From NCBI RefSeq assembly GCF_037975245.1, contig NC_092578.1, positions 10,272,359 to 10,336,358 on the forward strand: a DNA stretch of 64,000 nt, written 5' to 3'. A program made the position numbers and the translations under genes. This stretch comes from Apostichopus japonicus. Its lineage: Eukaryota; Echinodermata; Holothuroidea; Aspidochirotida; Stichopodidae. Shown piece by piece: positions 15-64,000 of this stretch. Numbering within the stretch: position 1 is the first letter of the stretch; each line of letters begins with the position of its first letter. A model generated the notes under the pieces. The model saw only the letters and a program-made list of their open reading frames with translations. It made no database searches and had not been told where the DNA came from.

Positions 15-68
15 CTAGAGTGGTTGTGCTCTCTTCAGTTGTTTCCTCTGTTGTAGTTGTCGAGGGAG
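15..68 (-). CDS. Exon B, unit U1: 18-residue Thr/Glu linker
   Basis: The acceptor CCTCTTTCAG precedes 54 nt reading APSTTTTEETTEESTTTL; the donor is CTAG|GTAAAT here and GTAATT in most other units. Phase 1-1. Nine Thr, two Ser and four Glu make it a likely O-glycosylated acidic spacer before the next D domain. It is the most downstream exon visible; the transcript continues beyond the left edge of the window. Confidence 0.78.
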   Translation of the reverse strand, partial: LPRQLQQRKQLKRAQPL

Positions 69-3000: not shown

Positions 3001-6000
3001 GAAATATTGTCTCAAAGCATAAAGAAAGTGGTCTTTCCATGTAACTATGGCAATCATCTATATATTAACCTATCAATAGAAACAATTCAGATGTAATAAC
3101 TCACCACAAATCTTCACGGTTATCATTTCTTCGCCGAGAGTAATGCCAGACACCAGTAATACGACTTTGTTTATAGCAAATGTTGGCAGCTTTTCTGTAA
3201 TCGAGTCTGCTTGTCCAAATTCTACAGGAGTTTCACCATCATCATTTTTGATCAGCACATACTCAGAAGTGTCCGAACGCACCACCACAACCTTTATGGT
3301 AGCACCCTCCGGGATGCCTTGTCCCAGGTTCAATGTCATCGGAATTCCACCTTCTCCAAGGTTCAAGGCGTACACTTCCACGTCTGTCAGAGTTTCAGAA
3401 ACTGAGGCAGCTATCTCATCTGCATCATCAGCAGCTACAGTACTCAACTGGTCACTCACTACTTTGATGTTTGCTTCTTCGCAAGCTGTGGGGTCAAAAA
3501 TCACAAAAATCATTTCATTTCAATCATCATAGTTCAAACATGTCTTAACAGACAAAATACAGAAACAATCATATGGTGTAACCCTACCTTCAGCTAAATC
3601 ATCCAGTCTAATTTACATTATATACACTTAGCAAGTTTACATCATCTAAGATTGTTAAATTTTCATCAGTCATCCTCCCAGATGAAGTATGTCCACAGGA
3701 AAAGTTGCAATGTTTACTAAGTAGCAACTATCACCCAGGGACAACCTCACTTTAATTCATAATAAAGTACAAACTTCCTTTCAACATCAGTCTCACAATG
3801 ACTGACTAAGATGTCAACCACATACTCATTAAATAAACAAATTAACCAATGTGTCTGCATAATATTTGTCATTGTCAGATGTTTTGTTGTTGATTTGATC
3901 GTTGAGATCCCCAAAGATACCCAAATTTGCAAACAAAGAGGTCACTCTAACCCTAAGGTTATGACAGAACATCTCAAAGCTTTCAAGAGAACAGTCACTG
4001 AATTTGATAATTACCTAGAGTGGTTGTGCTCTCTTCAGTTGTTTCCTCTGTTGTAGTTGTCGAGGGAGCTGAAGGAGGAAAATGTAAAGTAATCATTCAT
4101 TCTTCAAATACTTCTTCTAACACTCAACAAGACTCTACGTTGTACAATATATATGTCTAAATCAGGGGGTAGCTCTGCAAACTTTAACCTGAAAACCTGC
4201 AGAAATCATTCAAGCAGGGGATATGTTTGCAAACAAACCTCTACTGCTGTTCATGTGCAAGGCCAATATACATGATGACATATCTTCTTGAATAAGTAAC
4301 ACAATAATATAGTTCATTTAACCTCATTAATTGCTAAGCTTAGTTCCTTCAGTTCCCTCTTCCACCAGATGTACCTGCAGAGCAAGCCTTCTTTCAACAT
4401 AGGAATCACTGGCGAATCTTCTTTTTCATTATCTTGTAATACTAATGCATCTTCTAGATGACATAATACTCCCAACAGCTACAGCATCTATGGTGTTATT
4501 GCACTCCCTACTTCAGTCAATCACATTTTATGCCTCTTATGTATCTACTGCCAAAATCCTCAGTTTCACATTGCTCAATTGATTATCATCCTTTCATATT
4601 CAAAATCTTCAACTTAGAATAAAAGTTTAATTCAAGATAATAACAGTACTGCATTGCTTCCAACAAGCTCAATTCAGCAAGAAACTTTGGGACCAAATCC
4701 AAATCTTTGACCCCATCAATTGCAGTGGACATTGATAGTAATATGTCATATGAACAGAAAAGTTACCAACCTCCAGTAGTCGTAGCTTCTGTGGTGGTTG
4801 CTAAAAGTTAAAATGGGATTCAGGTGTTATATAATAAAATCTCATAATTTCCTTCTTCTTTGGGGTATATAGCGTATCTATTAGTGTTCACTGATTATAA
4901 TGTAAACTGTTCCATCTGTGTATTACATTTCATGCTACTAAAACTGACAGGAAAAGTCAGAAAAGCAAAGTGAACAACAGAAATATTGTCTCAAAGCATA
5001 AAGAAAGTGGTCTTTCCATGTAACTATGGCAATCATCTATGAATTAACCTATCAATAGTAAAAATTCAGATGTAATAACTCACCACAAATCTTCACCGTT
5101 ATCATTTCTTCGCCGAGAGTAATGCCAGACACCAGTAATACGACTTTGTTTATAGCAAATGCTGGCAGCTTTTCTGTAATCGAGTCTGCTTGTCCAAATT
5201 CTACAGGAGTTTCACCATCATCATTTTTGATCAGCACATACTCAGAAGTGTCCGAACGCACCACCACAACCTTTATGGTAGCACCCTCCGGGATGCCTTG
5301 TCCCAGGTTCAATGTCATCGGAATTCCACCTTCTCCAAGGTTCAAGGCGTACACTTCCACGTCTGTCAGAGTTTCAGAAACTGAGGCAGCTATCTCATCG
5401 GCATCATCAGCAGCTACAGTACTCAACTGGTCGCTCACTACTTTGATGTTTGCTTCTTCGCAAGCTTGGCGTCAAAAATCACAAAAATCATTTCATTTCA
5501 ATCATCATAGTTCAAACATGTCTTAACAGACAAAATACAGAAACAATCATATGGTGTAACCCTACCTTCAGCTAAATCATCCAGTCTAATTTACGTTATA
5601 CACACTTAGCAAGTTTTTATTATCTAAGATGGCTCAATTTCATCAGTCGTCCTCCAATATTCACAGGAAAAGTTGCAATGTTTACTAAGTAGCAACTATC
5701 ACCCAGAGACAATCTCACTTTAATTCATTACAAAGTATAAACTTCCTTTCAACATCAGTCTCACCCTGACTAACACTTCAAACTCATAAAATAAACAAAT
5801 AAACCAATGTGTCTGCATAATATTTGTCATTGTCAGATAATTTTCTGTTGATTTGATAGTTGAGATCCCCAAATTTGGAAACAAAGAGGTCACTCTAACC
5901 CTAAGGTTATGGTATGACAGTACATCTCAAAGCTTTCAAGAGAACAGTGACTGAATTTGATAATTACCTAGAGTGGTTGTACTCTCTTCAGTAGTTTCCT

Positions 6001-9000
6001 CTGTTGTAGTTGTCGAGGGAGCTTAAAGAGGAAAATGTAAAGTAATCAGTCATTCTCCAAAAACTTCTTTTAATACTCAACAAGACTCTAAACTGTACAA
6101 TATATATGATGTCTAAATCAGGGGGTAGCTCTGCAAACTCTAACCTGAAAAACTGCATAAATCATTCAAGCAGGGTATGTTTGCAACCAAACCACTATTG
6201 CTGTTCATGTGCAAGGCCAATATACATGATGACATATCTTCTTGAATGAGTGACACGACAATATAGTCCATTTAACATGACAACATACATTATTAATTGC
6301 TAGGCTTAGTTCACTCTTCCACCAGATCATCGTAATATGTAATATAAATAGAAAAGTTACCAACCTCCAGTAGTCGTAGCTTCTGTGGTGGTTGTTGGAG
6401 TAGCTAAAAATTGAAAATGGGATTCAGATGTTTCTTAATAAAAATCTCATTATTTCCTTCTTCTTTGGGGTATATAGCATATCTATTAGTGTTGGCTAAT
6501 GATAATGTAAATTGTTCCATTTGTGTATTACAATTCATGCTACTAAAACTGACGGGAAAAGTCAGAAAAGCAAAGTGAACAACAGAAATTTTGTCTCAAA
6601 ACATAAAGCAAGTCGTCTTTCCATGTAACTATGGCAATCATCTATGAATTAACCTATCAATAGTTAAATTCAGATATAACAACTCACCACAAATCTTCAC
6701 AGTTATCATTTCTTCGTCGAGAGTAATGCCAGACACCAGTAATACAACTTTGTTTATAGCAAATGTTGGCAGCTTTTCTGTGATCGAGTCTGCCTGTCCA
6801 AATTCTACAGGAGTTTCACCATCATCATTTTTGATCAGCACATACTCAGAAGTGTCCGAACGCACCACCACAACCTTTATGGTAGCACCCTCCGGGATGC
6901 CTTCTCTCAGGTTCAATGTCATCGGAATTCCATCTTCTCCAAGGTTCAAGGTGTATACTTCCACGTCTGTCAGAGTTTCAGAAACTGAGTCGGCTATCTC
7001 TTGGGCATCATCAGCAGCTACAGCACTCAACTGGCCGGTCACTACTTTGATGTTTGCTTCTTCGCAAGCTGTGGGGTCAAAAATTCAAAAATCATTTCAT
7101 TTCAATCATCATAGTTCAATCATGTCTAACAGAAAAAATACAGAAACAATCATATGGTGTAACCCTACTTCAGCTTAACCATCCAGTCTAATTTACGTTA
7201 TATACACTTAGCAAGTTTTTATTATCTAAGATGGCTCAATTTCATCAGTCGTCCTCCGATATTCACAGGAAAAGTTGCAATGTTTACTAAGTAGCAACTA
7301 TCACCCAGAGACAATCTCACTTTAATTCATTACAAAGTATAAACTTCCTTTCAACATCAGTCTCACCCTGACTAACACTTCAAACTCATAAAATAAACAA
7401 ATTAACCAATGTGTCTGCATAATATTTGTCATTGTCAGATGTTTTTCTGTTGATTTGATAGTTGAGATCCCCAAATTTGGAAACAAAGAGGTCACTCTAA
7501 CCCTAAGGTTATGGTATGACAGTACATCTCAAAGCTTTCAAGAGAACAGTGACTGAACTTGATAATTACCTAGAGTGGTTGTACTCTCTTCAGTAGTTTC
7601 CTCTGTTGTAGTTGTCGAGGGAGCTTAAAGAGGAAAATGTAAAGTAATCAGTCATTCTCCAAAAACTTCTTCTAATACTCAACAAGACTCTAAACTGTAC
7701 AATATATATGATGTCTAAATCAGGGGGTAGCTCTGCAAACTCTAACCTGAAAAACTGCATAAATCATTCAAGCAGGGTATGTTTGCAACCAAACCACTAT
7801 TGCTGTTCATGTGCAAGGCCAATATACATGATGACATATCTTCTTGAATGAGTGACACGACAATATAGTCCATTTAACATGACAACATACATTATTAATT
7901 GCTAGGCTTAGTTCACTCTTCCACCAGATCATCGTAATATGTAATATAAATAGAAAAGTTACCAACCTCCAGTAGTCGTAGCTTCTGTGGTGGTTGTTGG
8001 AGTAGCTAAAAATTGAAAATGGGATTCAGATGTTTCTTAATAAAAATCTCATTATTTCCTTCTTCTTTGGGGTATATAGCATATCTATTAGTGTTGGCTA
8101 ATTATAATGTAAATTGTTCCATTTGTGTATTACAATTCATGCTACTAAAACTGACGGGAAAAGTCAGAAAAGCAAAGTGAACAACAGAAATTTTGTCTCA
8201 AAACATAAAGCAAGTCGTCTTTCCATGTAACTATGGCAATCATATATGAATTAACCTATCAATAGTTAAATTCAGATATAACAACTCACCACAAATCTTC
8301 ACAGTTATCATTTCTTCGTCGAGAGTAATGCCAGACACCAGTAATACGACTTTGTTTATAGCAAATGTTGGCAGCTTTTCTGTGATCGAGTCTGCCTGTC
8401 CAAATTCTACAGGAGTTTCACCATCATCATTTTTGATCAGCACATACTCAGAAGTGTCCGAACGCACCACCACAACCTTTATGGTAGCACCCTCCGGGAT
8501 GCCTTCTCTCAGGTTCAATGTCATCGGAATTCCATCTTCTCCAAGGTTCAAGGTGTATACTTCCACGTCTGTCAGAGTTTCAGAAACTGAGTCGGCTATC
8601 TCTTGGGCATCATCAGCAGCTACAGCACTCAACTGGCCGGTCACTACTTTGATGTTTGCTTCTTCGCAAGCTGTGGGGTCAAAAATTCAAAAATCATTTC
8701 ATTTTAATCATCATAGTTCAATCATGTCTAACAGAAAACATACAGAAACAATCATATGGTGTAACCCTACTTCAGCTTAACCATCCAGTCTAATGTACGT
8801 TATATACACTTAGCAAGTTTTTATTATCTAAGATGGCTCAATTTCATCAGTCGTCCTCCGATATTCACAGGAAAAGTTGCAATGTTTACTAAGTAGCAAC
8901 TATCACCCAGAGACAATCTCACTTTAATTCATTACAAAGTATAAACTTCCTTTCAACATCAGTCTCACCCTGACTAACACCACAAACTCATAAAATAAAC

Positions 9001-12000
9001 AAATTAACCAATGTGTCTGCATAATATTTGTCATTGTCAGATGTTTTTCTGTTGATTTGATAGTTGAGATCCCCAAATTTGCAAACAAAGAGGTCACTCT
9101 AACCCTAAGGTTATGGTATGACAGTACATCTCAAAGCTTTCAACAGAACAGTGACTGAATTTGATAATTACCTAGAGTGGTTGTACTCTCTTCAGTAGTT
9201 TCCTCTGTTGTAGTTGTCGAGGGAGCTTCAAGAGGAAAATGTAAAGTAATCAAGCATTCTTCAAATACTTCTTCTAACACTCAACAAGACTCTAGGTTGC
9301 ACAATATATATGTCTAAATCAGGGGGTAGCTCTGCAAATGTTAACCTGAAAACCTGCAGAAATCTTTCAAGCAGGGGATATGTTTGCAAACAAACCTCTA
9401 CTGCTGTTCATGTGCAAGGCCAATATACATGATGACATATCTTCTTGAATAAGTAACACAATAAAATAGTTCATTTAACCTCATAAATTGCTAAGCTTAG
9501 TTCCCTCTTCCACCAGATATACCTGCAGAGCAAGCCTCCTTTCAACATAGGAATCAGTGGCAGATCTTCTTTTTCATTATCTTGTAATACTAATGCATCT
9601 CCTAGATGACATAATACTCCCAACAGCTACAGCATCTATGGTGTTATTGCACTCCCTACTTCAGTCAATCACATTTTATGCCCCTTATGTATCTACTGCC
9701 AAAATCCTCAGTTTCACATTGCTCAATTGATTATCATCCTTTCACATCCAAAATCTTCAAACTTAGAATAAAAGTTTCTGTAATTAAAGATAATAACAGT
9801 ACTGCATTTGCTTCCAACAAGTTCAATTCCACAAGAAACTTTGGTACCAAATCCAATTCTTTGACACAATCAATTGCAGTGGATATGGATCGTAATATGT
9901 CATATGAATAGAAAAAGTTACCAACCTCCAGTAGTCGTAGCTTCTGTGGTGGTTGTTGGAGTAGCTAAAAATTAAAAATGGGATTCATGGTTACATAATA
10001 AAATCTCATTACTTCTTTCTTCTTTGGGGTATATAGCGTATCTATTAGTGTTCACTGATTATAATGTAAACTGTTCCATCTGTGTAGTACATTTCATGCT
10101 ACTAAAACTGACGGGAAAAGTCAGAAAAGCAAAGTGAACAACAGAAATATTGTCTCAAAGCATAAAGAAAGTGGTCTTTCCATGTAACTATGGAAATCAT
10201 CTATGAATTAACCTATCAATAGAAACAATTCAGATGTAATAACTCACCACAAATCTTCACGGTTATCATTTCTTCGCCGAGAGTAATGCCAGACACCAGT
10301 AATACGACTTTGTTTATAGCAAATGTTGGCAGCTTTTCTGTAATCGAGTCTGCTTGTCCAAATTCTACAGGAGTTTCACCATCATCATTTTTGATCAGCA
10401 CATACTCAGAAGTGTCCGAACGCACCACCACAACCTTGATGGTAGCACCCTCCGGGATGCCTTGTCCCAGGTTCAATGTCATCGGAATTCCACCTTCTCC
10501 AAGGTTCAAGGCGTACACTTCCACGTCTGTCAGAGTTTCAGAAACTGAGGCAGCTATCTCATCGGCATCATCAGCAGCTGCAGTACTCAACTGGTCACTC
10601 ACTACTTTGATGTTTGCTTCTTCGCAAGCTGTGGGGTCAAAAATCACAAAAATCATTTCATTTCAATCATCATAGTTCAAACATGTCTTAACAGACAAAA
10701 TACAGAAACAATCATATGGTGTAACCCTACCTTCAGCTAAATCATCCAGTCTAATTTACATTATATACACTTAGCAAGTTTATATCATCTAAGATTGTTA
10801 AATTTTCATCAGTCATCCTCCCAGATGAAGTATGTCCACAGGAAAAGTTGCAATGCTTACTGAGTAGCAACTATCACCCAGGGACAACCTCACTTTAATT
10901 CATAATAAAGTACAAACTTCCTTTCAACATCAGTCTCACAATGACTGACTAAGATGTCAACCACATACTCATTAAATAAACAAATTAACCAATGTGTCTG
11001 CATAATATTTGTCATTGTCAGATGTTTTGTTGTTGATTTGATCGTTGAGATCCCCAAAGATACCCAAATTTGCAAACAAAGAGGTCACTCTAACCCTAAG
11101 GTTATGACAGAACATCTCAAAGCTTTCAAGAGAACAGTCACTGAATTTGATAATTACCTAGAGTGGTTGTGCTCTCTTCAGTTGTTTCCTCTGTTGTAGT
11201 TGTCGAGGGAGCTGAAAGAGGAAAATGTAAAGTAATCATTCATTCTTCAAATACTTCTTCTAACACTCAACAAGACTCTACGTTGTACAATATATATGTC
11301 GAAATCAGGGGGTAGCTCTGCAATTTTTAACCTGAAAACCTGCAGAAATCATTCAAGCAGGGGGTATGTTTGCAAACAAACCTCTACTGCTGTTCATGTG
11401 CAAGGCCAATATACATGATGACATATCTTCTTGAATAAGTAACACAATAATATAGTTCATTTAACCTCATTAATTGCTAAGCTTAGTTCCCTCAGTTCCC
11501 TCTTCCACCAGATGTACCTGCAGAGCAAGCCTCCTTTCAACATAGGAATCAGTGGCGAATCTTCTTTTTCATTATCTTGTAATACTAATGCATCTTCTAG
11601 ATGACATAATACTCCCAACAGCTACAGCATCTATGGTGTTATTACACTCTCTACTTCAGTCAATCACATTTTATGCCTCTTATGTATCTACTGCCAAAAT
11701 CCTCAGTTTCACATTGCTTGCTCAATTGATTATCATCCTTTCAAATCCAATATCTTCAACTTAGAATAAAAGTTTTTGTAATTAAAGGTAATAACAGTAC
11801 TGCATTTGCTTCCAACAAGTTCAATTCCGCAAGAAACTTTGGGACCAAATCCAAATCTTTGACACAATCAATTGCAGTGGACAATGATAGTAATATGTCA
11901 TATGAATAGAAAAAGTTACCAACCTCCAGTAGTCGTAGCTTCTGTGGTGGTTGTTGGAGTAGCTAAAAATTTAAAATGGGATTCAGGTGTTACATAATAA

Positions 12001-54000: not shown

Positions 54001-57000
54001 CCACCAGATGATCGTAATATGTAATATAAATAGAAAAGTTACCAACCTCCAGTAGTCGTAGATTCTGTGGTGGTTGTTGGAGTAGCTAAAAATTGAAAAT
54101 GGGATTCAGATGTTTCTCAATAAAAAATCTCATTATTTCCTTCTTCTTTGGGGTATATAGCATATCTATTAGTGTTGGCTAATTATAATGTAAATTGTTC
54201 CATTTGTGTATTACAGTTCATGCTACTAAAACTGACGGGAAAACTCAGAAAAGCAAAGTGAACAACAGAAATTTTGTCTCAAAACATAAAGCAAGTCGTC
54301 TTTCCATGTAACTATGGCAATCATCTATGAATTAACCTATCAATAGTTAAATTCAGCTGTAATAACTCACCACAAATCTTCACAGTTATCATTTCTTCGT
54401 CGAGAGTAATGCCAGACACCAGTAATACGACTTTGTTGATAGCAAATGTTGGCAGCTTTTCTGTAATCGAGTCTGCCTGTCCAAATTCTACAGGAGTTTC
54501 ACCATCATCATTTTTGATCAGCACATACTCAGAAGTGTCCGAACGCACCACCACAACCTTTATGGTAGCACCCTCCGGGATGCCTTCTCTCAGGTTCAAT
54601 GTCATCGGAATTCCACCTTCTCCAAGGTTCAAGGTGTACACTTCCACGTCTGTCAGAGTTTCAGAAACTGAGTCGGCTATCTCTTGGGCATCATCAGCAG
54701 CTACAGCACTCAACTGGCCGGTCACTACTTTGATGTTTGCTTCTTCGCAAGCTGTGGGGTCAAAAATTCAAAAATCATTTCATTTCAATCATCATAGTTC
54801 AATCATGTCTTAACAGAAAAAATACAGAAACAATCATATGGTGTAACCCTACCTTCAGCTAAACCATCCAGTCTAACTTACGTTATATACACTTAGCAAG
54901 TTTTCATTATCTAAGATGACTCAATTTCATCAGTCGTCCTCCGATATTCACAGGAAAAGTTGCAATCTTTACTAAGTAGCAACTATCACCCAGAGACAAT
55001 CTCACTTTAATTCATTACAAAGTATAAACTTCCTTCAACATCAGTCTCACCCTGACTAACACCACAAACTCATAACATAACAAATTAACCAATGTGTCTG
55101 CATAATATTTGTCATTGTCAGATGTTTTTCTGTTGATTTGATAGTTGAGATCCACAAATTTGGAAACAAAGAGGTCACTCTAACCCTAATGTTATGGTAT
55201 GACAGTACATCTCAAAGCTTTCAACAGAACAGTGACTAAATTTGATAATTACCTAGAGTGGTTGTACTCTCTTCAGTAGTATCCTCTGTTGTAGTTGTCG
55301 AGGGAGCTTAAAGAGGAAAATGTAAAGTAATCAGTCATTCTCCAAATACTTCTTTTAATACTCAACAAGACTCAAACTGTACAATATATATGATGTCTAA
55401 ATCAGGGGGTAGCTCTGCAAACTCTAACCTGAAAAACTGCATAAATCATTCAAGCAGGGTATGTTTGCAACCAAACCACTATTGCTGTTCATGTGCAAGG
55501 CCAATATACATGATGAAATATCTTTTTGAATGAGTGACACAACAATATAGTCCATTTAACATCACAACATACATTATTAATTGCTAGGCTTAGTTCACTC
55601 TTCCACCAGATGATCGTAATTTGTAATATAAATAGAAAAGTTACCAACCTCCAGTAGTTGTAGCTTCTGTGGTGGTTGTTGGAGTAGCTAAAAATTGAAA
55701 ATGGGATTCAGATGTTTCTTAATAAAAATCTCATTATTTCCTTCTTCTTTGGGGTATATAGCATATCTATTAGTGTTGGCTAATTATAATGTAAATTGTT
55801 CCATTTGTGTATTACAATTCATGCTACTAAAACTGATGGGAAAACTCAGAAAAGCAAAGTGAACAACAGAAATTTTGTCTCAAAACATAAAGCAAGTCGT
55901 CTTTCCATGTAACTATGGCAATCATCTATGAATTAACCTATCAATAGTTAAATTCAGCTGTAATAACTCACCACAAATCTTCACAGTTATCATTTCTTCG
56001 CCGAGAGTAATGCCAGACACCAGTAATACGACTTTGTTTATAGCAAATGTTGGCAGCTTTTCTGTAATCGAGTCTGCCTGTCCAAATTCTACAGGAGTTT
56101 CACCATCATCATTTTTGATCAGCACATACTCAGAAGTGTCCGAACGCACCACCACAACCTTTATGGTAGCACCCTCCGGGATGCCTTCTCTCAGGTTCAA
56201 TGTCATCGGAATTCCACCTTCCCCAAGGTTCAAGGTGTATACTTCCACGTCTGTCAGAGTTTCAGAAACTGAGTCGGCTATCTCTTGGGCATCATCAGCA
56301 GCTACAGCACTCAACTGGCCGGTCACTACTTTGATGTTTGCTTCTTCGCAAGCTGTGGGGTCAAAAATTCAAAAATCATTTCATTTCAATCATCATAGTT
56401 CAATCATGTCTTAACAGAAAAAATACAGAAACAATCATATGGTGTAACCCTACCTTCAGCTAAACCATCCAGTCTAACTTACGTTATATACACTTAGCAA
56501 GTTTTCATTATCTAAGATGGCTCAATTTCATCAGTCGTCCTCCGATATTCACAGGAAAAGTTGCAATGTTTACTAAGTAGCAACTATCACCCAGAGACAA
56601 TCTCACTTTAATTCATTACAAAGTATAAACTTCCTTTCAACATCAGTCTCACCCTGACTAACACCACAAACTCATAAAATAAACAAATTAACCAATGTGT
56701 CTGAAAATATTTGTCATTGTCAGATGTTTTGCTGTTGATTTGATAGTTGAGATCCCCAAATTTGGAAACAAAGAGGTCACTCTAATCCTAAGGTTATGGT
56801 ATGACAGTACATCTCAATGCTTTCAACAGAACAGTGACTGAATTTGATAATTACCTAGAGTGGTTGTACTCTCTTCAGTAGTTTCCTCTGTTGTAGTTGT
56901 CGAGGGAGCTTAAAGAGGAAAATGTAAAGTAATCAGTCATTCTCCAAAAACTTCTTCTAATACTCAACAAGACTCAAAACTGTACAATATATATGATGTC

Positions 57001-60000
57001 TAAATCAGGGGGTAGCTCTGCAAACTCTAACCTGAAAAACTGCATAAATCATTCAAGCAGAGTATGTTTGCAACCAAACCACTATTGCTGTTCATGTGCA
57101 AGGCCAATATACATGATGAAATATCTTCTTGAATGAGTGACACAACAATATAGTCCATTTAACATCACAACATACATTATTAATTGCTAGGCTTAGTTCA
57201 CTCTTCCACCAGATGATCGTAATATGTAATATAAATAGAAAAGTTACCAACCTCCAGTAGTCGTAGATTCTGTGGTGGTAGTTGGAGTAGCTAAAAATTG
57301 AAAATGGGATTCAGATGTTTCTCAATAAAAATCTCATTATTTCCTTCTTTTTTTGGGGTATATAGCATATCTATTAGTGTTGGCTAATTATAATGTAAAT
57401 TGTACCATTTGTGTATTACAATTCATGCTACTAAAACTGACGGGAAAACTCAGAAAAGCAAAGTGAACAACAGAAATTTTGTCTCAAAACATAAAGCAAG
57501 TCGTCTTTCCATGTAACTATGGCAATCATCTATGAATTAACCTATCAATAGTTAAATTCAGCTGTAATAACTCACCACAAATCTTCACAGTTATCATTTC
57601 TTCGTCGAGAGTAATGCCAGACACCAGTAATACGACTTTGTTGATAGCAAATGTTGGCAGCTTTTCTGTAATCGAGTCTGCCTGTCCAAATTCTACAGGA
57701 GATTCACCATCATCATTTTTGATCAGCACATACTCAGAAGTGTCCGAACGCACCACCACAACCTTTATGGTAGCACCCTCCGGGATGCCTTCTCTCAGGT
57801 TCAATGTCATCGGAATTCCACCTTCTCCAAGGTTCAAGGTGTATACTTCCACGTCTGTCAGAGTTTCAGAAACTGAGTCGGCTATCTCTTGGGCATCATC
57901 AGCAGCTACAGCACTCAACTGGCCGGTCACTACTTTGATGTTTGCTTCTTCGCAAGCTGTGGGGTCAAAAATTCAAAAATCATTTCATTTCAATCATCAT
58001 AGTTCAATCATGTCTTAACAGAAAAAATACAGAAACAATCATATGGTGTAACCCTACCTTCAGCTTAACCATCCAGTCTCACTTATGTTATATACACTTA
58101 GCAAGTTTTCATTATCTAAGATGGCTCAATTTCATCAGTCGTCCTCCGATATTCACAGGAAAAGTTGCAATCTTTACTAAGTAGCAACTATCACCCAGAG
58201 ACAATCTCACTTTAATTCATTACAAAGTATAAACTTCCTTTCAACATCAGTCTCACCCTGACTAACACCACAAACTCATAAAATAAACAAATTAACCAAT
58301 GTGTCTGAAAATATTTGTCATTGTCAGATGTTTTTCTGTTGATCTGATAGTTGAGATCCCCAAATTTGCAAACAAAGAGGTCACTCTAACCCTAAGGTTA
58401 TGGTATGACAGTACATCTCAATGCTTTCAACAGAACAGTGACTGAATTTGATAATTACCTAGAGTGGTTGTACTCTCTTCAGTAGTTTCCTCTGTTGTAG
58501 TTGTCGAGGGAGCTTAAAGAGGAAAATGTAAAGTAATCAGTCATTCTCCAAAAACTTCTTCTAATACTCAACAAGACTCAAAACTGTACAATATATATGA
58601 TGTCTAAATCAGGGGGTAGCTCTGCAAACTCTAACCTGAAAAACTGCATAAATCATTCAAGCAGAGTATGTTTGCAACCAAACCACTATTGCTGTTCATG
58701 TGCAAGGCCAATATACATGATGAAATATCTTCTTGAATGAGTGACACAACAATATAGTCCATTTAACATCACAACATACATTATTAATTGCTAGGCTTAG
58801 TTCACTCTTCCACCAGATGATCGTAATATGTAATATAAATAGAAAAGTTACCAACCTCCAGTAGTCGTAGATTCTGTGGTGGTTGTTGGAGTAGCTAAAA
58901 ATTGAAAATGGGATTCAGATGTTTCTCAATAAAAATCTCATTATTTCCTTCTTTTTTGGGGTATATAGCATATCTATTAGTGTTGGCTAATTATAATGTA
59001 AATTGTACCATTTGTGTATTACAATTCATGCTACTAAAACTGACGGGAAAAGTCAGAAAAGCAAAGTGAACAACAGAAATTTTGTCTCAAAACATAAAGC
59101 AAGTCGTCTTTCCATGTAACTATGGCAATCATCTATGAATTAACCTATCAATAGTTAAATTCAGCTGTAATAACTCACCACAAATCTTCACAGTTATCAT
59201 TTCTTCGTCGAGAGTAATGCCAGACACCAGTAATACGACTTTGTTGATAGCAAATGTTGGCAGCTTTTCTGTAATCGAGTCTGCCTGTCCAAATTCTACA
59301 GGAGTTTCACCATCATCATTTTTGATCAGCACATACTCAGAAGTGTCCGAACGCACCACCACAACCTTTATGGTAGCACCCTCCGGGATGCCTTCTCTCA
59401 GGTTCAATGTCATCGGAATTCCACCTTCTCCAAGGTTCAAGGTGTATACTTCCACGTCTGTCAGAGTTTCAGAAACTGAGTCGGCTATCTCTTGGGCATC
59501 ATCAGCAGCTACAGCACTCAACTGGCCGGTCACTACTTTGATGTTTGCTTCTTCGCAAGCTGTGGGGTCATAAATTCAAAAATCATTTCATTTCAATCAT
59601 CATAGTTCAATCATGTCTTAACAGAAAAAATACAGAAACAATCATATGGTGTAACCCTACCTTCAGCTTAACCATCCAGTCTCACTTACGTTATATACAC
59701 TTAGCAAGTTTTCATTATCTAAGATGGCTCAATTTCATCAGTCGTCCTCCGATATTCACAGGAAAAGTTGCAATGTTTACTAAGTAGCAACTATCACCCA
59801 GAGACAATCTCACTTTAATTCATTACAAAGTATAAACTTCCTTTCAACATCAGTCTCACCCTGACTAACACCACAAACTCATAAAATAAACAAATTAACC
59901 AATGTGTCTGAAAATATTTGTCATTGTCAGATGTTTTGCTGTTGATTTGATAGTTGAGATCCCCAAATTTGGAAACAAAGAGGTCACTCTAATCCTAAGG

Positions 60001-63000
60001 TTATGGTATGACAGTACATCTCAATGCTTTCAACAGAACAGTGACTGAATTTGATAATTACCTAGAGTGGTTGTACTCTCTTCAGTAGTTTCCTCTGTTG
60101 TAGTTGTCGAGGGAGCTTAAAGAGGAAAATGTAAAGTAATCAGTCATTCTCCAAAAACTTCTTCTAATACTCAACAAGACTCAAAACTGTACAATATATA
60201 TGATGTCTAAATCAGGGGGTAGCTCTGCAAACTCTAACCTGAAAAACTGCATAAATCATTCAAGCAGAGTATGTTTGCAACCAAACCACTATTGCTGTTC
60301 ATGTGCAAGGCCAATATACATGATGAAATATCTTCTTGAATGAGTGACACAACAATATAGTCCATTTAACATCACAACATACATTATTAATTGCTAGGCT
60401 TAGTTCACTCTTCCACCAGATGATCGTAATATGTAATATAAATAGAAAAGTTACCAACCTCCAGTAGTCGTAGATTCTGTGGTGGTAGTTGGAGTAGCTA
60501 AAAATTGAAAATGGGATTCAGATGTTTCTCAATAAAAATCTCATTATTTCCTTCTTTTTTTGGGGTATATAGCATATCTATTAGTGTTGGCTAATTATAA
60601 TGTAAATTGTACCATTTGTGTATTACAATTCATGCTACTAAAACTGACGGGGAAAAGTCAGAAAAGCAAAGTGAACAACAGAAATTTTGTCTCAAAACAT
60701 AAAGCAAGTCGTCTTTCCATGTAACTATGGCAATCATCTATGAATTAACCTATCAATAGTTAAATTCAGCTGTAATAACTCACCACAAATCTTCACAGTT
60801 ATCATTTCTTCGTCGAGAGTAATGCCAGACACCAGTAATACGACTTTGTTGATAGCAAATGTTGGCAGCTTTTCTGTAATCGAGTCTGCCTGTCCAAATT
60901 CTACAGGAGATTCACCATCATCATTTTTGATCAGCACATACTCAGAAGTGTCCGAACGCACCACCACAACCTTTATGGTAGCACCCTCCGGGATGCCTTC
61001 TCTCAGGTTCAATGTCATCGGAATTCCACCTTCTCCAAGGTTCAAGGTGTATACTTCCACGTCTGTCAGAGTTTCAGAAACTGAGTCGGCTATCTCTTGG
61101 GCATCATCAGCAGCTACAGCACTCAACTGGCCGGTCACTACTTTGATGTTTGCTTCTTCGCAAGCTGTGGGGTCAAAAATTCAAAAATCATTTCATTTCA
61201 ATCATCATAGTTCAATCATGTCTTAACAGAAAAAATACAGAAACAATCATATGGTGTAACCCTACCTTCAGCTTAACCATCCAGTCTCACTTATGTTATA
61301 TACACTTAGCAAGTTTTCATTATCTAAGATGGCTCAATTTCATCAGTCGTCCTCCGATATTCACAGGAAAAGTTGCAATCTTTACTAAGTAGCAACTATC
61401 ACCCAGAGACAATCTCACTTTAATTCATTACAAAGTATAAACTTCCTTTCAACATCAGTCTCACCCTGACTAACACCACAAACTCATAAAATAAACAAAT
61501 TAACCAATGTGTCTGAAAATATTTGTCATTGTCAGATGTTTTTCTGTTGATCTGATAGTTGAGATCCCCAAATTTGCAAACAAAGAGGTCACTCTAACCC
61601 TAAGGTTATGGTATGACAGTACATCTCAATGCTTTCAACAGAACAGTGACTGAATTTGATAATTACCTAGAGTGGTTGTACTCTCTTCAGTAGTTTCCTC
61701 TGTTGTAGTTGTCGAGGGAGCTTAAAGAGGAAAATGTAAAGTAATCAGTCATTCTCCAAAAACTTCTTCTAATACTCAACAAGACTCAAAACTGTACAAT
61801 ATATATGATGTCTAAATCAGGGGGTAGCTCTGCAAACTCTAACCTGAAAAACTGCATAAATCATTCAAGCAGAGTATGTTTGCAACCAAACCACTATTGC
61901 TGTTCATGTGCAAGGCCAATATACATGATGAAATATCTTCTTGAATGAGTGACACAACAATATAGTCCATTTAACATCACAACATACATTATTAATTGCT
62001 AGGCTTAGTTCACTCTTCCACCAGATGATCGTAATATGTAATATAAATAGAAAAGTTACCAACCTCCAGTAGTCGTAGATTCTGTGGTGGTTGTTGGAGT
62101 AGCTAAAAATTGAAAATGGGATTCAGATGTTTCTCAATAAAAATCTCATTATTTCCTTCTTTTTTGGGGTATATAGCATATCTATTAGTGTTGGCTAATT
62201 ATAATGTAAATTGTACCATTTGTGTATTACAATTCATGCTACTAAAACTGACGGGAAAAGTCAGAAAAGCAAAGTGAACAACAGAAATTTTGTCTCAAAA
62301 CATAAAGCAAGTCGTCTTTCCATGTAACTATGGCAATCATCTATGAATTAACCTATCAATAGTTAAATTCAGCTGTAATAACTCACCACAAATCTTCACA
62401 GTTATCATTTCTTCGTCGAGAGTAATGCCAGACACCAGTAATACGACTTTGTTGATAGCAAATGTTGGCAGCTTTTCTGTAATCGAGTCTGCCTGTCCAA
62501 ATTCTACAGGAGTTTCACCATCATCATTTTTGATCAGCACATACTCAGAAGTGTCCGAACGCACCACCACAACCTTTATGGTAGCACCCTCCGGGATGCC
62601 TTCTCTCAGGTTCAATGTCATCGGAATTCCACCTTCTCCAAGGTTCAAGGTGTATACTTCCACGTCTGTCAGAGTTTCAGAAACTGAGTCGGCTATCTCT
62701 TGGGCATCATCAGCAGCTACAGCACTCAACTGGCCGGTCACTACTTTGATGTTTGCTTCTTCGCAAGCTGTGGGGTCAAAAATTCAAAAATCATTTCATT
62801 TCAATCATCATAGTTCTATCATGTCTTAACAGAAAAAATACAGAAACAATCATATGGTGTAACCCTACCTTCAGCTTAACCATCCAGTCTCACTTACGTT
62901 ATATACACTTAGCAAGTTTTCATTATCTAAGATGGCTCAATTTCATCAGTCGTCCTCCGATATTCACAGGAAAAGTTGCAATCTTTACTAAGTAGCAACT

Positions 63001-64000
63001 ATCACCCAGAGACAATCTCACTTTAATTCATTACAAAGTATAAACTTCCTTTCAACATCAGTCTCACCCTGACTAACACCACAAACTCATAAAATAAACA
63101 AATTAACCAATGTGTCTGAAAATATTTGTCATTGTCAGATGTTTTTCTGTTGATTTGATAGTTGAGATCCCCAAATTTGGAAACAAAGAGGTCACTCTAA
63201 CCCTAAGGTTATGGTATGACAGTACATCTCAATGCTTTCAACAGAACAGTGACTGAATTTGATAATTACCTAGAGTGGTTGTACTCTCTTCAGTAGTTTC
63301 CTCTGTTGTAGTTGTCGAGGGAGCTTAAAGAGGAAAATGTAAAGTAATCAGTCATTCTCCAAAAACTTCTTCTAATACTCAACAAGACTCAAAACTGTAC
63401 AATATATATGATGTCTAAATCAGGGGGTAGCTCTGCAAACTCTAACCTGAAAAACTGCATAAATCATTCAAGCAGAGTATGTTTGCAACCAAACCACTAT
63501 TGCTGTTCATGTGCAAGGCCAATATACATGATGAAATATCTTCTTGAATGAGTGACACAACAATATAGTCCATTTAACATCACAACATACATTATTAATT
63601 GCTAGGCTTAGTTCACTCTTCCACCAGATGATCGTAATATGTAATATAAATAGAAAAGTTACCAACCTCCAGTAGTCGTAGATTCTGTGGTGGTTGTTGG
63701 AGTAGCTAAAAATTGAAAATGGGATTCAGATGTTTCTCAATAAAAATCTCATTATTTCCTTCTTTTTTGGGGTATATAGCATATCTATTAGTGTTGGCTA
63801 ATTATAATGTAAATTGTACCATTTGTGTATTACAATTCATGCTACTAAAACTGACGGGAAAAGTCAGAAAAGCAAAGTGAACAACAGAAATTTTGTCTCA
63901 AAACATAAAGCAAGTCGTCTTTCCATGTAACTATGGCAATCATCTATGAATTAACCTATCAATAGTTAAATTCAGCTGTAATAACTCACCACAAATCTCC
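15..64000 (-). CDS. Giant modular repeat protein gene (mucin-like), internal part, both ends open
   Basis: One multi-exon gene covers the window, transcribed right to left. It is made of repeated D-A-B exon triplets. D is a 127-residue beta-rich domain with Cys at residues 2 and 127 only. A and B are short Thr/Glu/Pro linkers of the kind that usually carries O-glycans in mucin-like extracellular proteins. Seen directly: GT/AG borders at every exon, all exons phase 1-1, and intact reading frame in all 37 full D exons. The D domain has 23 Asp/Glu against 8 Lys/Arg (type II) and no N-X-S/T site. Inferred: a secreted or cell-surface, strongly acidic, elongated protein. No signal peptide, transmembrane segment, start or stop lies inside the window, so localisation is inference. 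The alternative, a non-coding satellite with chance ORFs, is unlikely because splice sites, phases and frame are kept in every copy. Confidence 0.82.
69..780 (-). other. A-B intron, long form (reference)
   Basis: The 712-nt intron lies between exons A and B of U1. About 370 nt of it, roughly 390-755, is absent from the short units. That segment has no Thr-rich stretch, no terminal inverted repeat and no coding pattern I trust. The plus-strand 70-codon ORF inside it is lost in the other long units through small indels. Confidence 0.6.
781..819 (-). CDS. Exon A, unit U1: 13-residue Thr-rich linker (full form)
   Basis: The acceptor TTTTTAG precedes 39 nt reading ATPTTTTEATTTG, with Ala1 made from the split codon. 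I chose the donor GAG|GTTGGT because it keeps phase 1-1 and matches the next exon. A second GT five bases further (TTG|GTAACT) would leave phase 2 and break the frame into exon B. Eight of 13 residues are Thr, typical of an O-glycosylated spacer. This form occurs 33 times in the window. Confidence 0.78.
820..1104 (-). other. D-A intron (reference)
   Basis: The 285-nt AT-rich intron is bounded by GTGAGT and TTTTTAG. It is similar in all units and nothing coding is seen in it. Confidence 0.6.
1105..1485 (-). CDS. Exon D, unit U1 (type I domain; reference exon)
   Basis: The exon starts after the acceptor GACCCCACAG and ends before the donor GTGAGT, 381 nt, phase 1-1. The split first codon gives Ala1, then Cys2-Glu-Glu; the last full codon is Cys127. 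Strands suggested by alternating hydrophobic residues lie near 5-10, 36-43, 62-69, 75-80 and 104-112, with a last strand MITVKIC at 121-127, suggesting a beta-sandwich closed by a Cys2-Cys127 disulfide. Residues 40-49 and 51-60 look like an internal duplication (LNLGEGGIP / LNLGQGIPEG). Type I residues: Ser11, Asp12, Thr16, Asp23, Ala27, Ala40, Gly55, Gln56, Gly118. Its downstream linkers are A at 781-819 and B at 15-68. The ORF runs beyond the exon into both introns, so the ends are set by splice sites. Family unknown to me. Confidence 0.87.
1486..2014 (-). other. B-D intron (reference)
   Basis: The 529-nt intron lies between B of U2 and D of U1. It contains a possible 6-nt microexon at 1588-1593. 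Otherwise it is AT-rich and non-coding, with donor GTAATT and acceptor CCCCACAG. Confidence 0.55.
1588..1593 (-). other. Possible 6-nt microexon (CTGAAG), doubtful
   Basis: On the minus strand TTTAG|CTGAAG|GTAGGG has an acceptor-like AG, six bases in phase 1-1 (Ala-Glu) and a good donor. It would add two residues between B and D without changing frame. Against it: the pyrimidine tract is weak, and the donor G or GT is altered in U4, U5, U18 and U27. It may only be chance or a recursive splice site. Confidence 0.2.
3105..3485 (-). CDS. Exon D, unit U2 (type I)
   Basis: The encoded domain is identical to that of U1, exactly 2000 bp away. Downstream linkers: A 2781-2819 (full), B 2015-2068. The A-B intron is the long form. 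Confidence 0.86.
4771..4800 (-). CDS. Exon A, unit U3: 10-residue short linker
   Basis: A 9-bp deletion removes three codons and the old acceptor border; a new TTTTAG stands directly before CAACC. The exon becomes 30 nt reading ATTTEATTTG, still phase 1-1. The same allele occurs at 19056-19085, 25797-25826, 35766-35795, 52132-52161 and 52464-52493, always in units with a long A-B intron. Confidence 0.76.
5084..5464 (-). CDS. Exon D, unit U3 (type I, altered acceptor)
   Basis: The domain is type I with Thr102 changed to Ala. The acceptor differs from all others: a one-base loss and substitutions make it GACGCCAAG instead of GACCCCACAG, so it ends in AAG and may be weaker. The exon itself stays in frame. 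Downstream linkers: A 4771-4800 (short) and B 4015-4068. This is the only type I domain paired with a short A exon. Confidence 0.84.
6688..7068 (-). CDS. Exon D, unit U4 (type II, Asp46)
   Basis: This is the leftmost type II domain: Thr11, Gly12, Ala16, Gln23, Asp27, Thr40, Arg55, Glu56, Asp118. It also carries Gly46 to Asp. Downstream linkers: A 6365-6403, B 5968-6021. The A-B intron is the short form (343 nt). Confidence 0.86.
8290..8670 (-). CDS. Exon D, unit U5 (type II, Asp46)
   Basis: The protein is identical to that of U4, 1602 bp away, so the pair looks like a recent single-unit duplication. Downstream linkers: A 7967-8005, B 7570-7623. Confidence 0.86.
10248..10628 (-). CDS. Exon D, unit U6 (type I, Ala17)
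   Basis: Type I domain with Val17 to Ala. It corresponds to U1 at an offset of 9143 bp. Downstream linkers: A 9926-9964, B 9172-9225. The acceptor of this B exon ends in GAAG rather than CAG. Confidence 0.86.
12248..12628 (-). CDS. Exon D, unit U7 (type I)
   Basis: The protein is identical to U1 and U2; it corresponds to U2 at +9143 bp. Downstream linkers: A 11924-11962, B 11158-11211. Confidence 0.86.
14248..14628 (-). CDS. Exon D, unit U8 (type I, Asn23)
   Basis: Type I domain with Asp23 to Asn. Parts of its flanking introns resemble type II units, so it may be a recombinant between the two classes. Downstream linkers: A 13924-13962, B 13158-13211. Confidence 0.86.
15842..16222 (-). CDS. 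Exon D, unit U9 (type II, junction Ala to Asp)
   Basis: Type II with Asp46. The first exon base is A instead of C, so the junction codon reads Asp rather than Ala before Cys2; the acceptor CACAG is unchanged. Downstream linkers: A 15530-15568, B 15136-15189. Its B exon has the type II synonymous changes but a CAG acceptor like type I. Confidence 0.85.
17426..17806 (-). CDS. Exon D, unit U10 (type II consensus)
   Basis: Consensus type II protein. Downstream linkers: A 17112-17150, B 16715-16768. The intron upstream of it carries variants (TTTTCAGATG and CTGATGATTTG on the plus strand) shared with the introns upstream of U14, U20 and U30, each next to a long unit. Confidence 0.86.
19369..19749 (-). 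CDS. Exon D, unit U11 (type II, Gly18/Asp46/Gly118)
   Basis: This is a mosaic: type II residues in the first part, with Ala18 to Gly and Gly46 to Asp, but Gly118 as in type I. The A-B intron is long. Downstream linkers: A 19056-19085 (short), B 18299-18352. Confidence 0.86.
20966..21346 (-). CDS. Exon D, unit U12 (type II, Val62)
   Basis: Type II with Ala62 to Val, a marker shared only with U16, U22 and U24. Downstream linkers: A 20646-20684, B 20242-20295. The A-B intron has a private 7-bp insertion near 20503. Confidence 0.86.
22573..22953 (-). CDS. Exon D, unit U13 (type II consensus)
   Basis: Consensus type II protein. A 3-bp ATC gain just past the donor is shared with U17, U23 and U25. 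Downstream linkers: A 22247-22285, B 21850-21903. Confidence 0.86.
24167..24547 (-). CDS. Exon D, unit U14 (type II consensus)
   Basis: Consensus type II protein, copy of U10 at +6741 bp. Downstream linkers: A 23844-23882, B 23447-23500. Confidence 0.86.
26110..26490 (-). CDS. Exon D, unit U15 (type II, Gly18/Asp46/Gly118)
   Basis: The protein is identical to U11, exactly 6741 bp away. Downstream linkers: A 25797-25826 (short), B 25040-25093. The A-B intron is long. Confidence 0.86.
27703..28083 (-). CDS. Exon D, unit U16 (type II, Val62)
   Basis: The protein is identical to U12. Downstream linkers: A 27380-27418, B 26983-27036. Confidence 0.86.
29312..29692 (-). CDS. Exon D, unit U17 (type II consensus)
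   Basis: Consensus protein; its open frame continues into the upstream intron, which is not coding. Downstream linkers: A 28986-29024, B 28589-28642. The B exon has silent changes (Pro CCT, Thr ACC) shared with U23 and U25. Confidence 0.86.
30915..31295 (-). CDS. Exon D, unit U18 (type II consensus)
   Basis: Consensus protein with the silent Ile79 ATA codon. Downstream linkers: A 30592-30630 (silent ACA), B 30196-30249. Confidence 0.86.
32522..32902 (-). CDS. Exon D, unit U19 (type II consensus)
   Basis: Consensus protein, silent Ile79 ATA. Downstream linkers: A 32199-32237, B 31802-31855. Copied as U28 at +14763 bp. Confidence 0.86.
34126..34506 (-). CDS. Exon D, unit U20 (type II, Asp60)
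   Basis: Type II with Glu60 to Asp, found only here and in U29 and U30. Downstream linkers: A 33803-33841, B 33406-33459. Confidence 0.86.
36079..36459 (-). CDS. Exon D, unit U21 (type II, Gly18/Asp46/Gly118)
   Basis: Same protein as U11 and U15, third copy of the mosaic long unit. Downstream linkers: A 35766-35795 (short), B 35010-35063. Confidence 0.86.
37672..38052 (-). CDS. Exon D, unit U22 (type II, Val62)
   Basis: Copy of U16 at +9969 bp. Downstream linkers: A 37349-37387, B 36952-37005. Confidence 0.86.
39281..39661 (-). CDS. Exon D, unit U23 (type II consensus)
   Basis: Copy of U17 at +9969 bp. Downstream linkers: A 38955-38993, B 38558-38611. Confidence 0.86.
40876..41256 (-). CDS. 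Exon D, unit U24 (type II, Val62)
   Basis: Copy of U22 at +3204 bp. Downstream linkers: A 40553-40591, B 40156-40209. Confidence 0.86.
42485..42865 (-). CDS. Exon D, unit U25 (type II consensus)
   Basis: Copy of U23 at +3204 bp. Downstream linkers: A 42159-42197, B 41762-41815. Confidence 0.86.
44080..44460 (-). CDS. Exon D, unit U26 (type II consensus)
   Basis: Consensus protein. Its left part resembles U14 (offset about 19913 bp) and its right flank resembles U17/U18, so it lies at a junction between duplicated blocks. Downstream linkers: A 43757-43795, B 43360-43413. Confidence 0.86.
45682..46062 (-). CDS. Exon D, unit U27 (type II consensus)
   Basis: Copy of U18 at about +14767 bp. Downstream linkers: A 45359-45397, B 44963-45016. 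Confidence 0.86.
47285..47665 (-). CDS. Exon D, unit U28 (type II consensus)
   Basis: Copy of U19 at +14763 bp. Downstream linkers: A 46962-47000, B 46565-46618. Confidence 0.86.
48889..49269 (-). CDS. Exon D, unit U29 (type II, Asp60)
   Basis: Copy of U20 at +14763 bp. Downstream linkers: A 48566-48604, B 48169-48222. Confidence 0.86.
50493..50873 (-). CDS. Exon D, unit U30 (type II, Asp60)
   Basis: Second copy of the U20 type, 1604 bp from U29, so a single-unit duplication. Downstream linkers: A 50170-50208, B 49773-49826. Confidence 0.86.
52132..52161 (-). CDS. Exon A of U31, duplicated extra copy (short)
   Basis: Identical to the copy 332 bp to the right, with intact TTTTAG acceptor and GAG|GTTGGT donor. 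If spliced it adds ten Thr-rich residues in frame. Whether it is used cannot be told from sequence. Confidence 0.62.
52464..52493 (-). CDS. Exon A of U31, first copy (short)
   Basis: 30-nt short linker in phase 1-1, lying in the right-hand copy of the 332-bp duplication. It keeps both splice borders. Confidence 0.72.
52777..53157 (-). CDS. Exon D, unit U31 (type II, Gly18/Gly118, two A exons)
   Basis: Like U11, but with Gly46 restored. This is the longest unit: 2284 bp separate its D exon from that of U30. Downstream linkers: A 52464-52493, then a duplicated A at 52132-52161 (both short), then B 51377-51430. Confidence 0.85.
54371..54751 (-). CDS. Exon D, unit U32 (type II consensus)
   Basis: Consensus protein with silent Ile105 ATC, a marker shared with U34-U37. 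Downstream linkers: A 54047-54085, with Ala9 to Ser, and B 53650-53703. Confidence 0.86.
55972..56352 (-). CDS. Exon D, unit U33 (type II, Gly118)
   Basis: Type II with Gly118 as in type I. Downstream linkers: A 55649-55687 (Ala9 kept), B 55253-55306. The B exon has Glu9 to Asp, one of few amino-acid changes seen in any linker. Confidence 0.86.
57576..57956 (-). CDS. Exon D, unit U34 (type II, Ser86)
   Basis: Type II with Thr86 to Ser, shared only with U36. Downstream linkers: A 57252-57290 (Ala9 to Ser), B 56855-56908. Confidence 0.86.
59179..59559 (-). CDS. Exon D, unit U35 (type II consensus)
   Basis: Consensus protein. One base changed in the intron just upstream of the exon (plus-strand TCATAAATTC) is private to this copy. 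Downstream linkers: A 58856-58894 (Ser9), B 58459-58512. Confidence 0.86.
60784..61164 (-). CDS. Exon D, unit U36 (type II, Ser86)
   Basis: Copy of U34 at +3208 bp. Downstream linkers: A 60459-60497 (Ser9), B 60062-60115. Confidence 0.86.
62387..62767 (-). CDS. Exon D, unit U37 (type II consensus)
   Basis: Copy of U35 at +3208 bp. Downstream linkers: A 62064-62102 (Ser9), B 61667-61720. Confidence 0.86.
63990..64000 (-). CDS. Exon D, unit U38, last 11 bases only
   Basis: The donor GTGAGT and the end of the exon are present; the rest lies beyond the right edge, showing the array continues. The base at 63999 differs from other copies and would change Lys125 to Glu, though it sits two bases from the edge. 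Downstream linkers: A 63667-63705 (Ser9), B 63270-63323. Confidence 0.75.

Follow-up and report, generated by a model that had tools for sequence, protein, structure and literature searches.

The exon array described here is probably the central part of a single giant gene encoding a secreted protein that forms polymers, of the gel-forming mucin/von Willebrand factor (VWF) type, in which a D1-D2-D'-D3 start precedes about 207 copies of a repeated unit that we call the A domain, joined by Thr-rich linkers, and a cystine knot forms the end. The window, by which we mean the whole 64,000-nucleotide stretch of the Apostichopus japonicus genome that was analysed (C18:10,272,359-10,336,358, where C18 is the contig carrying the array), lies within this array, and both gene ends lie outside it. 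The original prediction had described a single repeat-built coding locus whose product would be an extracellular fibre or gel protein of exceptional length. The sequence supports that description, with VWD, C8 and TIL domains on the 5' side and a cystine knot on the 3' side; the probable mucin-type identity is new and comes from these ends beyond the window.

The part of the D-A-B array that falls in the window occupies window positions 15-63705 on the minus strand, as established from exon coordinates and a genome search. It comprises 38 D exons of 54 nt, 37 complete A exons of 381 nt and 39 B exons of 39 nt, six of which are shorter by 9 nt (30 nt) with the frame kept; one further A exon straddles the right window edge. 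The D exons (APSTTTTEETTEESTTTLG-type, Thr-rich) extend from the first at 15-68 to the last at 63270-63323, and the B exons (ATPTTTTEATTTGG-type, Thr-rich) from 781-819 to 63667-63705, all on the minus strand. The complete A exons, also on the minus strand and each supported by its coordinates and by a check of splice sites and stops, are found at 1105-1485, 3105-3485, 5084-5464, 6688-7068, 8290-8670, 10248-10628, 12248-12628, 14248-14628, 15842-16222, 17426-17806, 19369-19749, 20966-21346, 22573-22953, 24167-24547, 26110-26490, 27703-28083, 29312-29692, 30915-31295, 32522-32902, 34126-34506, 36079-36459, 37672-38052, 39281-39661, 40876-41256, 42485-42865, 44080-44460, 45682-46062, 47285-47665, 48889-49269, 50493-50873, 52777-53157, 54371-54751, 55972-56352, 57576-57956, 59179-59559, 60784-61164 and 62387-62767. 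Each of these A exons (37/37) is free of stops and bordered by an AG acceptor and by GTGAGTT as donor, and every D exon (38/38) has AG/GT and lacks a stop. The strict check was passed by 33 of the 39 B exons, and the other six, given the 9-nt shortening, retain AG/GT and phase. All D, A and B exons checked have phase 1 at both ends. The A domain in the window has about 126-127 residues with a single cysteine at either end, and the linker encoded by B plus D has 30 residues, 63% of them S/T and 70% T/S/P. A tandem duplication of 332 bp (99% matches) at window positions 51842-52507 doubles a B exon.

Our recount and splice-site check agree with the repeat, minus strand, exon borders and phase originally predicted. 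The coding sum for the window, recomputed as 37 x 127 + 38 x 18 + 39 x 13 - 18, is 5,872 residues, close to the predicted figure of about 5,870; the prediction of at least 38 D-A-B triplets holds for the repeat itself but not for a uniform series of 38, as the tally above makes plain.

Open frames, splice sites, phase, an excess of third-position changes and dN/dS below 1 together support the reading of the array as coding sequence. The variable sites among the 37 window A exons are distributed 7/8/20 over the three codon positions. By the Nei-Gojobori method (custom script), dN/dS was below 1 in 9/9 class comparisons (range 0.07-0.69): three 5' classes compared with one another gave 0.38, 0.65 and 0.69, and six comparisons within the class that occupies the 3' part of the array gave 0.07-0.47. 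Between the A1 and A2 classes, 360 of 378 exon bases are identical, and the flanking introns, at 264/289 and 249/279, fall below exon identity. The most diverged 5' class is different: its exon identity (338 and 343 of 378) is no higher than that of its introns, and this parity tells against strong constraint there. In the sampled stretches, among copies within 25% difference, 73/73 D exons were intact and 67/75 B exons strictly intact, the other 8/75 being 9 nt shorter in frame with AG/GT kept. The cysteines are also regular in these stretches, with two in 57/57 complete copies of the A1/A2 class and one internal cysteine in 30/30 complete copies of the 3' class, where the exon start AG-NN-TGY, which supplies the start cysteine, was seen in 23/23 of the pattern-caught copies among those 30.

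These observations bear on the possibility that the array is a decaying, untranslated satellite of former exons lying between working 5' and 3' parts of a mucin gene. Such a satellite would account for the duplication of exons together with introns, for the one fragment in the 3' class and for the parity just noted in the most diverged 5' class; the 5'-most A fragment, truncated and carrying a stop, also points that way and counts against the gene that we propose. Set against this are 207 complete copies free of stops, the dN/dS values and third-position excess, and the fact that the sole B length change met is one of 9 nt, in frame. We regard a satellite as very improbable.

The array extends far beyond the window. 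In a search of the genome (671.6 Mb, 35 contigs), the whole array was found to span C18:9,971,701-10,395,079, 423 kb on the minus strand throughout, and to hold at least 207 complete A-domain exons plus two fragments, with an internal stop absent in 208/209. The window A domain found at least 141 matches (140 complete and the 5' fragment), all on the minus strand of C18 at 10,137,655-10,395,079. A search with the diverged class of the 3' flank found at least 68 more, again on C18 minus, at 9,971,701-10,134,232; these are 67 that are complete or lack at most two residues, plus one fragment. No position is shared by the two result sets, and since 150 of 208 candidates were scored in either search, these counts are lower bounds. 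The two main A classes share 25-26% protein identity, with similar length and both boundary cysteines kept. The earlier description of the repeats as almost without divergence therefore applies within blocks, as between A1 and A2, and fails for the array as a whole, given the distance of the 3' class; likewise, the absence of any end in sight on either side is accurate inside the window and not beyond it, where flanking end domains are found.

Allowing 158 residues for each of 140 units, about 134 plus about 55 Thr-rich residues for each of 67 others and about 1,500 for both ends together, we arrive at a predicted product of about 36,000 residues (34,000-37,000) if all exons are used, approximately the length of titin. 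The figure of 55 comes from sampled units inspected by eye, and that of 1,500 is guessed.

A possible objection is that the copy number was inflated or altered by assembly and that the true gene has far fewer domains. The tandem units are indeed near identical: in one sampled stretch, 12 comparisons of adjacent 2-kb units gave 1-11 differing bases, and some adjacent 2,337-bp units in C18:10081000-10110999 are identical, the longest exact repeat there being at least 5,597 bp and perhaps longer, since it begins right at the edge of that stretch. In the window the longest such repeat measures 3,638 bp, and in further stretches 2,826, 5,041 and 3,352 bp. According to PMC10344927, the Apostichopus japonicus assembly (671.6 Mb, 34 scaffolds, 23 chromosomes) was made from PacBio HiFi reads with a mean length of 14,729 bp, and the exact repeats of 2.8 to 5.6 kb in the five stretches are shorter than that. 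HiFi reads can thus resolve the array repeats; identical neighbours exist, and copy number may differ between animals. Moreover, N letters are absent from every stretch fetched, which together with the window amount to 241 kb of the 423-kb array, and the distinct classes and diverged edge copies are unlike a simple assembly loop. We judge inflation by assembly to be improbable.

The identity of the proposed gene comes from its flanks. On the 5' side, the domains follow the order D1-D2-D'-D3 on the same strand as the array. The genome search placed three C8 domains here, one per D assembly, at C18:10402996-10403154, C18:10411634-10411810 and C18:10415850-10416062, all on the minus strand, and none inside the array among the 147 matches listed (150 of 158 candidates scored, genome-wide). 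Pfam matched the VWD domain of D3, at 10404454-10404606 with a part in the 5'-flank stretch L002, and the VWD of D2 in that same stretch. The second half of the D1 VWD was identified by its own CGLC motif and a BLAST match to D3, and its first half was recognised by eye only. For the TIL domains, that of D3 scored 41.9 bits against a Pfam cut-off of 24.5, those of D1 (24.2 bits) and D' (21.6 bits) fell just below this cut-off, and that of D2 was recognised by eye only. The CGLC motif, which serves polymerisation in the D domains of gel-forming mucins, is present in the VWD of D1 and D3 and was not found in that of D2. The D3 exon matched, in the PDB, IgG-Fc-binding protein (FCGBP; the best match), Mucin-2, Mucin-5B, Mucin-5AC and VWF. 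Neither a signal-peptide exon nor a first exon was identified, which counts against the gene as proposed.

On the 3' side (positions 416-790 of flank stretch L009) lies a cystine knot whose frame closes with a stop codon. Its Pfam matches are Cys_knot (3.4e-10, 40.6 bits, cut-off 24) and DAN (1.7e-7), and its nearest PDB entries are VWF and Mucin-2, then Norrin. Cys_knot has three matches genome-wide (7/7 candidates scored), one of them at the array locus. Farther 3' of the gene, L010:1000-2943 on the minus strand holds an RT-like open frame of 648 residues, noted by eye, that is probably a retrotransposon.

The array switches class near C18:10134232-10137655, and this switch might mark a boundary between two or more adjacent genes: D1-D3 and the A1/A2 domains would belong to the 5' one, the diverged class and the cystine knot to the 3' one. 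Against this, a Pfam scan of the stretch across the junction (L003) showed no terminal domain, its sole match being to PAD_M, whose 16.8 bits fall short of the cut-off of 24.8, and Thr-rich frames carry on over the junction. Also, just one cystine knot and, among the C8 matches listed, one C8 set were found for the entire locus. In view of the single sets of end domains, the junction without a terminal domain and the Thr-rich frames across it, the locus is most simply read as a single gene, about 460 kb long, whose start region and end each occur once, and adjacent genes seem to us a poor bet, on a par with assembly inflation.

We infer that the D-A-B exons are spliced into one single transcript. 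An alternative leaves the gene architecture as proposed and differs in the product alone: each mRNA would take a subset of the 207 domains, and alternative splicing would yield a family of shorter mucin-like proteins. The units are near identical within blocks and, because the exons checked have phase 1 at both ends, any D/A/B set could be skipped without a frameshift, a point that tells against a product with every exon. The donors, on the other hand, are uniform, GTGAGTT being present in all of the window A exons, and copies do not differ in any obvious regulatory way. Of the alternatives, we take this one most seriously, as a minority prospect clearly behind the single giant gene that we favour.

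The repeated A domain had not been recognised in the original prediction, and profile searches likewise place it in no family: two window frames of one A exon and six class members gave no Pfam family for it, and none matched the SEA domain, at E up to 10. Matches to PAD_M and ROF, from one class member each (E 0.05-0.11), were rejected as chance. A phmmer match in the PDB to the adhesin 7uc3 (E 0.69) was also rejected. A profile match to a CFA/I fimbrial subunit fusion (E 0.00059) was rejected because it came from three identical fused copies, each contributing 6.4 bits over 34 residues. A bacterial or archaeal origin was also rejected, a contig scan with 35 pattern matches having given no relative.

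Structure prediction had been suggested together with an HMM search of the 127-residue domain; it gave a low-confidence answer that leans to a jelly roll. AlphaFold2, run with 12 distinct window A proteins drawn from the 37 copies, returned a beta-rich model of low confidence (pLDDT 57.6, pTM 0.55). With this model, Foldseek found a best E of 0.011 and nothing at or below 0.001, its top rows being mostly discoidin, carbohydrate-binding module (CBM) or similar. VIA-align gave Z scores up to 7.1, where values below 8 may mean merely a common arrangement. Within that common-arrangement range of scores, model residues 1 to 126 cover whole neuropilin b1 domains end to end, a span that would suit a Cys-to-Cys clamp. 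We take all this as a hint that the fold leans to a discoidin/CBM jelly roll. The A domain would be a new family whose structure awaits solving.

The same contig carries a second locus with the same kind of ends. At C18:1,178,051-1,218,178 on the plus strand, three C8 domains and a cystine knot occur in the order seen at the array locus (stretches L025 and L026), and the centre holds long Thr/Ser/Pro frames, including a 3,803-codon frame that is 90% T/S/P; tblastn found no A-like domain in the 20 kb read there. These domains would form one gene, a probable paralogous gel-forming mucin of the PTS kind. Its ends are like those of the array gene and its centre differs, with classical PTS in place of A domains, so that with this apparent conventional paralog in the same genome the two mucin designs can be compared in one animal. 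Three further loci were noted in passing. Dense VWD and C8 exons extend over about 140 kb at C15:15,811,048-15,949,429 (plus strand), perhaps encoding a single multi-VWD protein of very large size; C8 and VWD exons cluster again at C18:5,262,117-5,273,260 (minus strand), on the same chromosome as the array; and cox1-like frame pieces at C29:14,745-31,219 may be nuclear mitochondrial DNA or an assembly leftover. The mitochondrial contig itself is translated with table 9 (AAA = Asn) and shows a gene order of the echinoid/holothuroid type, which fits A. japonicus.

We propose the following mechanism for the array protein. Its Cys-bounded A domains of about 127-134 residues, linked by short Thr-rich spacers, would each be closed by a disulfide from the first to the last cysteine, and the Thr-rich linkers would be O-glycosylated. 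The D assemblies would couple chains head to head and the cystine knot tail to tail, modes of coupling that are established for VWF and MUC2. The A domains would be beads that set the spacing and add non-covalent or sugar-binding contacts, a role parallel to that proposed for the CYS (CysD) domains of vertebrate mucins. The resulting gel, as mucus or on a surface, would be made of chains the size of titin provided that every exon is included. Polymer formation, glycosylation, a disulfide inside every bead and the tissue of expression are all parts of this proposal. A bolder version, which we offer tentatively and at somewhat less than an even chance, has a single secreted polypeptide of about 34,000-37,000 residues, polymerised through mucin D domains and the cystine knot, in which some 207 copies of an undescribed domain, possibly a sugar-binding jelly roll, have taken the place of the PTS region; the result would be a cable, both glycan-bearing and glycan-binding, that is micrometres long.

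If translated whole, this would be among the longest proteins known. Human gel-forming mucins have several thousand residues, and to our knowledge the predicted chain far exceeds any known gel-forming mucin. If the proposal is true, the mucin plan can make gels from hundreds of folded beads rather than from a PTS brush, and the near-perfect array offers a test of how such a chain gets spliced, folded and secreted. A giant protein is not out of place in this phylum, since in one survey (PMC11573180) the two proteomes richest in proteins of more than 5,000 residues are those of the echinoderms Patiria miniata and Strongylocentrotus purpuratus. The longest AUGUSTUS model of another sea cucumber, Holothuria glaberrima, has 79,360 residues according to a table in PMC13228809, and is possibly a similar giant. 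No title or beginning of an abstract that we found names a giant sea-cucumber mucin built on an array of domains, and one may still be in print.

The array protein has its ends in common with gel-forming mucins, and we infer that it works like one. A long PTS domain is the usual mark of mucins; no long PTS frame was present in the 241 kb of array read, where minus-strand stop-free stretches of 60 residues all had at most 33% S/T, and this counts against our interpretation. MUC2, MUC5AC and MUC5B show the same D1-D2-D'-D3 start, a C-terminal cystine knot and a centre in which folded domains alternate with Thr-rich sequence; among known structures, each of these three is matched by the D3 exon, and that of Mucin-2 by the cystine knot. 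The CYS domain of those mucins has about 110 residues, about 10% of them conserved cysteines. The A domain has two cysteines to its roughly ten and no Pfam match. VWF has the same start and the same cystine-knot end, with A1-A3 and a few C domains in its middle, where the array gene instead has an unrelated repeated domain. FCGBP, which gave the D3 exon its best structural match, consists of VWD assemblies in series and is not known to have a cystine knot, whereas the array gene has three C8 domains plus the knot. MUC16 is built as a long run of multi-exon units of about 156 residues, each with a folded SEA domain and Thr-rich sequence, and has a membrane anchor; such units resemble those of the array, but the units here have no SEA match and the ends are VWD and a cystine knot. 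The secreted mucus protein Oikosin1 of Oikopleura, as described in PMC6861317, resembles the array protein in having many copies of a mucin-type domain and differs in that these are 13 CYS domains. The same paper gives two CYS domains for MUC2, nine for MUC5AC and seven for MUC5B, where they are thought to add weak cross-links, against about 207 A copies here. The linkers here, about 30 residues long in the window, lie in small exons rather than in one long PTS exon. Relative to vertebrate mucins the proportion is reversed, and the folded beads dominate.
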